Below, piece by piece: positions 25,124 through 41,518 of a DNA stretch of 64,000 nucleotides; within the stretch, counting starts at the first letter, position 1; every line of letters starts with the position of its first letter. The stretch is from contig NZ_JAAWWS010000142.1 in NCBI RefSeq assembly GCF_012272825.1, forward strand, positions 62,001-126,000. Reading direction: 5' to 3'. This DNA comes from Wenzhouxiangella sp. XN79A (GTDB lineage: Bacteria; Pseudomonadota; Gammaproteobacteria; Xanthomonadales; Wenzhouxiangellaceae). A program made the position numbers and the translations under genes. Under the pieces are notes generated by a model. The model saw only the letters and a list, made by a program, of their open reading frames with translations. It ran no database searches and was not told the origin of the DNA.

Positions 25124-29739
<4,616 letters not shown>

Positions 29740-29793: not shown

Positions 29794-30866
29794 TTCGCGC
29801 GCAAGCGCCCTCCAACAGGCGCCGGATCGCCGGGCCCGGATCGAAGGTCTGTTGGAGGCCGCTTGCGGGCGAAGGGTGGCCCGGCCGGTTCGCGAGCAAG
29901 CTCCCTCCAACAGGCGAAGTGGGCGGCGCAGTCGATCGGAGGTCTGTTGGAGGCCGCTTGCGGGCGAAGGGGGGTCGGATCGGTTCGCGAGCAAGCTCCC
30001 TCCAACAGGCGACGGATCGCCGGGCCCGAATCGAAGGTCTGTTGGAGGCCGCTTGCGGGCGAAGGGTGGCCCGGCCGGTTCGCGCGCAAGCGCCCTCCAA
30101 CAGGCGAATCAGCACCGGCGCCGGATCGAAGGTCTGTTGGAGGCCGCTTGCGGGCGAAGGGAGGCCCGGCCGGTTCGCGCGCAAGCGCCCTCCAACAGGC
30201 GAATCAGCACCGGCGCCGGATCGAAGGTCTGTTGGAGGCCGCTTGCGGGCGAAGGGAGGCCCGGCCGGTTCGCGCGCAAGCGCCCTCCAACAGGCGAAGT
30301 GGGCGGCGCAGTCGATCGAAGGTCTGTTGGAGGCCGCTTGCGGGCGAAGGGTGGCCCGACCGGTTCGCGAGCAAGCTCCCTCCAACAGGCGAAGTGGGCG
30401 GCGCAATCGATCGAAGGTCTGTTGGAGGCCGCTTGCGGGCGAAGGGTGGCCCGGCCGGTTCGCGCGCAAGCGCCCTCCAACAGGCGAATCAGCGCCGGCG
30501 CCGGATCGAAGGTCTGTTGGAGGCCGCTTGCGGGCGAAAGGAGGCCCGGCCGGTTCGCGAGCAAGCTCCCTCCAACAGGCGAAGTGGGCGGCGCAGTTGA
30601 TCGAAGGTCTGTTGGAGGCCGCTTGCGGGCGAAGGGTGGTACGGCCGGTTCGCGAGCAAGCGCGCTCCAACAGGCGACGGATCGCCGGGCCCGGATCGAA
30701 GGTCTGTTGGAGGCCGCTTGCGGGCGAAGGGTGGCTCGGCCGGTTCGCGCGCAAGCGCCCTCCAACAGGCGACGGATCGCCGGCGCCGGATCGAAGGTCT
30801 GTTGGAGGCCGCTTGCGGGCGAAGGGTGGTACGGCCGGTTCGCGCGCAAGCGCCCTCCAACAGGCG
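29794..30866. repeat. REPIN array: 11 hairpin units at an exact 95-bp period
   Basis: Each unit has a left arm (CTGTTGGAGGCCGCTTGCGG, continuing GCGAA), a 15-bp loop, and a right arm beginning TTCGCG and ending CCCTCCAACAG. The arms are complementary in about 23 of 25 positions. A ~30-bp spacer then leads to the next unit. The CAACAGG of the right arm recurs at 95-bp steps from 29816 to 30861, giving 12 right arms and 11 left arms; the first right arm is an orphan. Each arm also folds alone: a GGAG foot plus CCGC-TT-GCGG. Three spacer types alternate (start cggatcgc, aagtgggc, aatcagc). The GGAG-plus-hairpin form matches REP sequences paired as REPINs. No RAYT transposase is in the window. 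Confidence 0.9.
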
Positions 30867-30965
30867 CCGGATCGCCGGCGCCGGATCGTAGATCGTCAGG
30901 TTTCAGCCACCGTTCAGGGCAGGGCGGTCATAATCGGGGCCACTTCGAACCGGTGGATTCCCGCT

Positions 30966-31583
30966 GTGAAACTCCATTTCCTGATCCCGGTGCTCTCCGT
31001 CCTGTTCGTCGCGCTGCCCGCGCCGGCGCAGCAGGCCGACGCACGGGCGCTGCTCGATGCCTTCGCCGATGACCTGACCAGCCTGACCGCCGAGTTCACC
31101 CAGATCACGGTCGACGGCCGCGACGAGGTGGTCGAGCAGAGCGCGGGGCGGATGGCCTTCGAGGCGCCGGAGAAGATCCGCTGGGACTACCTCGAACCGT
31201 TCCCGCAGGTGCTGATCGCCGACGGCGAGCAGCTCTGGCACTACGACGAGGCGCTGGAGCAGGTCACGGTCCGGCCGCAGCCGGCGCCGGAAGACTCGCC
31301 GATGCTGGTCCTGACCCGGCCCGACCTGCTCGAGACCTTCTACCGCGTGCTGCGGTCCGATCAGCCGAACGTACTGCGGTTCGAGCCGCTGTCCGACGAA
31401 GCCGGCATCGAGATGGCCCGGCTGACCTTCGTCGACGGCGTGCCGTATGCGCTGGACCTGTTCGACCCGTTCGGCCAGTCGACCCGACTGACGCTGGAGA
31501 ACATCGAGCGCAATCCGACGATTGCCGAAGGCGAGTTCGTGTTCGAAGTGCCCGAAGGCGTCGACGTGCTCGAAGGGCTGTGA
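30966..31583 (+). CDS. lolA: Outer-membrane lipoprotein carrier protein
   Basis: 205 aa from GTG 30966. Signal peptide at ~1-21 (LIPVLSVLFVALPAPAQQ). Mature features of LolA: LTSLTAEFTQITVDG, GRMAFEAPEKIRWDY, PFPQVLIADGEQLWHYD, YALDLFDPFGQSTRLTLENI. It carries lipoproteins across the periplasm from LolCDE to LolB. The position after ftsK is the conserved one, but here 1.2 kb of repeats intervenes. A CATAAT box at about 30930 could be a private promoter. The same frame stays open upstream through the repeats, which should not be read as protein. Confidence 0.93.
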   Translation: MKLHFLIPVLSVLFVALPAPAQQADARALLDAFADDLTSLTAEFTQITVDGRDEVVEQSAGRMAFEAPEKIRWDYLEPFPQVLIADGEQLWHYDEALEQVTVRPQPAPEDSPMLVLTRPDLLETFYRVLRSDQPNVLRFEPLSDEAGIEMARLTFVDGVPYALDLFDPFGQSTRLTLENIERNPTIAEGEFVFEVPEGVDVLEGL

Positions 31584-41178: not shown

Positions 41179-41518
41179 CCTGATTACGCACGTTTCTCAG
41201 CCGGTAGTACAGCCCTCCGGAGGCTTGCAGGAGACTCGAGAACAGCAAGCAAGGATCCTTCGAAAGCACTTTTTGCCCAGCTTCTCCTGTTGGAGGGCGC
41301 TTGCGCGCGAAGGGTGGCCGCTTCCGAAGTCGTTCGCGCGCAAGCGCCCTCCAACAGGCGGTCTTTCTGCCAGTCCGGCGTCGGGCTGGAATCTCGCTCG
41401 GGATGGAAACCCGTCCTTCGAATCCGACCGGACGATCCAACGGCTCGCCTATCGCCTGCCGCGACGCTCCGACGCCGGGACGTTACCCGACCGTGGCCGA
41501 GATTCATGCGTAATCAGG
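41179..41518. mobile_element. 340-bp MITE-like insertion carrying one REPIN
   Basis: Ends are CCTGATTACGCA (41179-41190) and TGCGTAATCAGG (41507-41518), exact inverted repeats of 12 bp; extended to 24 bp, 20 positions match. There is no convincing gene. It separates two halves of a sequence that is continuous at 41736-41800, so the insertion is recognisable from the duplicate. Its end core ATTAnnCATGAA resembles that of the element at 9397. A REPIN lies near its centre. Confidence 0.7.
41287..41357. repeat. Isolated REPIN
   Basis: Two 25-bp arms (41287-41311 and 41333-41357) are perfect inverted complements, starting CTGTTGGAGGGCGCTTGCGC, with a 21-bp loop. The arms match the right arms of the array at 29794-30866, and the GGAG foot is present. 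This copy is more symmetrical than those in the array. Confidence 0.85.

Follow-up and report, generated by a model that had tools for sequence, protein, structure and literature searches.

A 95-bp-period REPIN array between ftsK and lolA in a Wenzhouxiangella-like genome, probably a BIME mobilised by a single RAYT

DNA gyrase is known to bind the BIME-2 elements of Escherichia coli. These elements, composed of Y and Z2 units, resemble the arrays described here in the tandem alternation of two REP types and in their position beside a RAYT gene (PMC2817692, PMC8266576), although their REP sequence differs from that of the present arms. The BIMEs of Xanthomonas campestris and Stenotrophomonas (Nunvar et al. 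2010, PMC2817692) likewise form large clusters of regularly spaced, alternating REPs; X. campestris has an arm (GTAGGAGCGCGCTCGCGCGCGA) only slightly different from our g-type arm, and the RAYT genes of those genera are also flanked by cognate REPs and BIMEs. Their tag, however, is GTAG where ours is GTTG, and the inter-REP segments of Stenotrophomonas are described as mutually unrelated, whereas one spacer family is present in 40 arrays of the genome studied here.

In Pseudomonas fluorescens SBW25 (Bertels and Rainey 2011, PMC3116915) near-identical REPINs also stand in tandem together with their flanks, and clusters lie beside RAYT genes. The REPINs of SBW25 are mostly solitary and its 16 clusters reach at most four REPINs plus one REP, unlike the present genome, where arrays of up to 25 arms predominate in the loci read. 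Finally, the GTAG-tagged REP dimers of Di Nocera et al. (2013, PMC3733652) comprise HH dimers with conserved spacers and TT dimers with variable ones, include heterodimers and lie mostly downstream of genes, as do ours; the differences are the GTTG tag and the fact that heterodimers are almost obligatory here.

Against this background, we read the repeat tract between ftsK and lolA as a BIME, i.e. a tandem array of REPINs whose REP family is probably mobilised by the single RAYT of the genome, and which has grown by exchange with no selection on its spacing (probability roughly 85%). At the level of sequence this reading is carried by covariation within the hairpin arms, by two arm types that alternate strictly, by arrays on either side of the RAYT gene, by copies throughout the genome and by spacer subtypes common to several loci.

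Architecture and setting of the array

The window (the whole stretch of 64,000 nucleotides that was analysed) belongs to a 3.75-Mb genome in 171 contigs, and the array's own contig measures 137 kb. FtsK has its closest match in the named collection in Wenzhouxiangella (77%). The tract is by far the top-scoring tandem array of the window in Tandem Repeats Finder, which places it at 29794-30888 with a period of 95, 11.5 copies and a score of 1614. Over these coordinates (29794..30888, strand unassigned) it resolves into 11 REPINs, each of an R arm and an L arm, and one leading L arm, at a period of exactly 95 bp. The 12 L arms (minus strand, TTCGCG..CTCCAACAG) start at 29794 + 95n with n from 0 to 11, and the 11 R arms (plus strand, CTGTTGGAGGCCGCTTGCGGGCGAA) have an invariant core and show zero drift. 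With a 23-nt arm core counted, one unit consists of L arm, 32-nt outer spacer, R arm and 17-nt inner spacer. The first of each can be seen in the orphan L arm core, a g-type REP (29795..29817, minus strand; recurring at +95 in 12 copies), the first outer or TT spacer (29818..29849, plus strand, 32 nt; one of 11 such between arms), the first R arm core, a C-type REP (TGTTGGAGGCCGCTTGCGGGCGA; 29850..29872, plus strand; recurring at +95 in 11 copies, core invariant) and the inner, head-out (HH) spacer of the first REPIN (29873..29889, plus strand, 17 nt).

The exact 95-bp period claimed in the original prediction is confirmed both by Tandem Repeats Finder and by the arms laid out at 95-base steps, and its three spacer sequences correspond to three classes of 32-nt outer spacer in the order KFKBBFFBFKK. 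The predicted start at 29794 stands, while the right end moves from 30866 to 30888, since a partial outer spacer still follows the last arm. Most of the variation between units falls in the outer spacer, with 18 variable positions; the inner spacer has 7, the L arm 3 and the R arm none. The L-arm stems read GCGC or GAGC, two covarying types, plus one recombinant. Folded as DNA, the 72-nt stretch from R to L arm is better than 200 of 200 shuffles (z = -4.2). A chance origin of the array is excluded. Matches of the array region to known RNA families all lie far under gathering scores. A protein-coding array was rejected, since the open frames are explained by composition and 35% of shuffled units are likewise open in six frames. 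An open frame of 554 aa (29919-31583) does run across the array into lolA and is likely to cause mis-annotation.

The array begins 54 bp after the stop codon of ftsK, which encodes the DNA translocase (27403..29739, plus strand), and is followed by lolA (30966..31583, plus strand, GTG start). The gap between the two genes measures 1,226 bp, compared with at most 130 bp in 54 of 81 other loci with both genes, some of the remaining gaps being far longer. To the right of the array, a conserved block (TTCAGCCACCGTTCAGGGCAGGGCGGTCATAAT; 30902..30934, plus strand) is probably the lolA promoter, as judged from its conservation among relatives (1 mismatch in G004, 5 in G005, partial in G001). A scan of the ftsK-lolA gap for a consensus sigma-70 promoter or an intrinsic terminator returned neither.

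The closest relative compared (G004), whose FtsK is 96% identical over its C-terminal half, has an ftsK-lolA gap of about 650 bp that contains one degenerate REP and no array, and at two further loci its flanking genes match while the long arrays do not. About three copies of a different repeat (GGTGCTCG..ATCC.CACGCACATGC) occupy that gap (L188 500-1500), and a possible remnant of it (GGCGGTGCTCGGAACCCTC) directly adjoins the window array on the left. Elsewhere in the same relative, ten GTGG-tagged arms stand head-to-tail in one orientation at steps of about 33 bp (L201 1143-1717), unlike the alternating arrays.

The FtsK context had been said to add interest, and one reading would have the array serve FtsK or chromosome segregation. 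Its position beside ftsK is all that speaks for such a role, which we regard as next to negligible: dozens of similar arrays stand at other genes of the same genome, and the relative with the 96% identical FtsK segment has no array at this place. The FtsK context is therefore incidental. Within 60 bp of arrays there are 24 gene 3' ends but just 3 gene 5' ends (crude gene caller; window neighbours hand-corrected), in agreement with published REP locations (PMC3733652).

Arms, genome-wide copies and the RAYT gene

Each arm consists of a 5' tag, CT-GTTG, followed by GAG and a short hairpin with a TT or TC loop. The R arm matches the genome 526 times when as many as 3 mismatches are allowed, while the reversed control gives 0 matches. 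Array-bearing stretches amounting to 206 kb, which cover 457 of these 526 matches, were read with a wider pattern and yielded 575 arms, most of them grouped in clusters that alternate strictly and hold as many as 25 arms. Stem pair 9-18 is GC in 288 and CG in 283 of the 575 arms, and pair 10-17 is CG in 430, AT in 99 and TA in 10. The letters of the stem thus change while the pairs stay complementary, so that pairing is maintained; scored for covariation, the 24 distinct arm sequences reach 0.364, compared with 0.095 in shuffles and at most 0.108 with slid partners.

The arms are accordingly REP elements in the general sense of a palindrome behind a conserved 5' tetranucleotide, with GTTG in most of the 575 arms and a covarying stem, and they share the high copy number and mainly intergenic location of REPs, as the arrays read sit between called genes (crude gene caller). 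The strict GT(A/G)G definition of Nunvar and the GTAG superfamily of Di Nocera do not include them, the third base of the tag being T in 553 of 575 arms, C in 14 and G in 8. GTTG arms are here treated as a one-base variant and not as literal GTAG members; the arms of relatives bear GTGG and GTAG tags.

Two inverted REPs with outward tags and a short spacer make up a REPIN, and the arms of this genome are so arranged, both in arrays and as solitary pairs. The inner spacer is 17 nt long in 238 of the 257 R-to-L neighbours in the stretches read, and the REPIN is nearly always a heterodimer of one CCGC-type arm and one GCGC- or GAGC-type arm. The tandem, regularly spaced succession of REPs in alternating orientation is that of a BIME. 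Same-orientation arms at 62-bp steps occur inside one otherwise alternating array on contig C39 (L167 11110-12092). The window also holds a solitary head-out REPIN of the same REP family with two g-type arms (41286..41358, strand unassigned). Its flanks (CCTTCGAAAGC..TTTTTGCCC on one side, CTTTCTG..GGGCTGGAATCTCGCT on the other) are similar to the flanks of solitary copies on contigs C22 and C30, which suggests that this REPIN forms the core of a longer dispersed element.

A single RAYT gene scores above the curated cut-off. It lies on the minus strand of a 3.8-kb contig (C31; L127 1339-1809) and its match to profile NF047646 (C31:1354-1761) reaches 124 bits against a cut-off of 80. Its start codon is not obvious; it carries the HUH-type motif MPDHVHW and matches the TnpA-REP structure 4er8 in sequence. 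Arrays of the same arms border the gene on both sides, so that the gene and its REPs form a putative REPtron. Among same-genus genomes arms and RAYT tend to co-occur: the present genome with 526 arms and G004 with 47 each have a RAYT, G001, G003 and G005 have neither, and G002 has a RAYT-like match and one arm. The REPIN identity foreseen in the original prediction, the related arms across the genome and the RAYT gene that it proposed to search for have thus all been found.

Counting against mobilisation by this RAYT is the GTTG tag, one base off GTAG and GTGG. An experimental GTTG mutant was left uncut by the Stenotrophomonas TnpA-REP (PMC8266576), and since this change abolished cleavage by that enzyme, activity of the present RAYT on GTTG arms stands as a prediction.

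Shared spacers, exchange and the 95-bp step

The outer spacers fall into about 25 subtypes, some of them common to up to 18 loci. The window order KFKBBFFBFKK can be set beside AKAFAKBAAEBF on contig C8 and F.BAAEFFBAF on contig C48, and the window spacers reappear in these two arrays at 29-32 identical bases of 32. For 32-nt spacers, the nearest relative in another array agrees at 13.48 of the 14 middle bases and the nearest in the same array at 12.83. Relatives in other arrays are therefore at least as near, for which reason an origin solely by local amplification of a founder unit was rejected, and units or parts of units move between arrays. Since subtypes are common to many loci, the arrays are mosaics of a genome-wide pool, which points to exchange between arrays and supports the exchange among units that had been proposed. 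This shared pool is the least usual feature here, because Stenotrophomonas BIMEs have been described with unrelated inter-REP segments (PMC2817692).

The mosaics could also be a product of RAYT chemistry, in which circles of one module would be cut at CT beside GTTG and inserted at the same site elsewhere in register, following the circle and rolling-circle model of Nunvar 2010 (PMC2817692). Besides having been proposed in the literature, this would suit steps that stay in register, module subtypes common to several loci and a CT-GTTG kept at nearly every arm. Comparison of spacer linkage nevertheless reveals no preferred breakpoint at the RAYT cut site or tag, linkage of the outer spacer to its left and right inner spacers being equal (0.055 and 0.052; interval of the difference -0.028 to 0.040), and arms recombinant inside the stem exist (GGCGC/GCTCG), as expected from homologous exchange. 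With symmetric linkage and recombination within stems, the data lean to ordinary homologous exchange over tag cutting, and we consider the circle route possible though rather unlikely. Slightly more doubtful still is its extended form, in which all arrays would be one module pool copied in register from locus to locus by a RAYT whose tag changed from GTAG to GTTG, the genome being a natural record of BIME growth.

The constancy of the 95-bp step had been attributed in part to selection on spacing, close to nine helical turns; such selection could act, for instance, through a DNA-binding protein. All 11 outer spacers of the window array are indeed 32 nt long, and the two main length classes of the genome correspond to periods of 84 and about 95 bp, which come close to eight and nine turns. 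Outer spacers measure 29-33 nt (mode 32) or 20-21 nt and inner spacers almost always 17 nt, and lengths within an array are more uniform than expected (within-array sum of squares 953, compared with 2,396 when permuted). The outer-spacer lengths, however, follow spacer families, so that the two classes represent few independent events. Sister arrays of the genome have periods of 84 or 92-96 bp, among which 92, 93 and 96 are common. In a related genome of another family (G059), with GTAG-tagged arms and the same two stem types, array steps of 98, 100, 102, 112 and 114-115 bp are mostly constant inside each array and as a set are not whole helical turns. Steps that are mostly constant within and varied between arrays fit descent from a founder unit and not selection for whole turns; given these other periods helical-phase selection was rejected, and we hold it to be very improbable.

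The count of units and their order might be an artefact of assembly, with near-identical 95-bp units collapsed or mis-joined from short reads. The draft is divided into 171 contigs and often breaks at arrays: on 17 contigs, a total of 21 array clusters come to within 150 bp of the contig end, and N runs interrupt some of the arrays. The number of units and the order in which they stand are therefore provisional. Yet unique sequence closes the ftsK-lolA array on both sides within its 137-kb contig, the window units bear distinct variants and arrays of the same build occur in G059, which makes an artefact unlikely.

Proposed origin and meaning

Under the preferred reading of a BIME grown by exchange, the RAYT would have seeded REPINs behind gene 3' ends, and homologous exchange by unequal crossing-over and gene conversion, both inside an array and from one array to another, would then have lengthened and mixed them. 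The exact 95-bp step would reflect descent from a 95-bp module that has gathered only substitutions here. The array would be transcribed as a structured region after ftsK with the lolA promoter left intact, so that any effect would fall on ftsK 3'-end processing or on read-through into lolA.

Overall, the ftsK-lolA array is a large but ordinary, well-formed and unusually abundant case of the known RAYT-associated REPIN/BIME arrays, with two less usual details, namely outer-spacer subtypes common to many loci and a GTTG tag instead of GTAG or GTGG. It also serves as a warning that draft genomes are not to be relied on for array counts, or for gene calls through arrays such as the 554-aa frame fused with lolA. 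BIME arrays are hereby extended to a Wenzhouxiangella-like lineage in an unusually rich case: arms number in the hundreds and long arrays in the dozens, there is one RAYT, and single modules are marked by their spacer subtypes. With modules so marked, one could ask whether transposase action or ordinary recombination makes BIMEs grow, a question of the REP literature.
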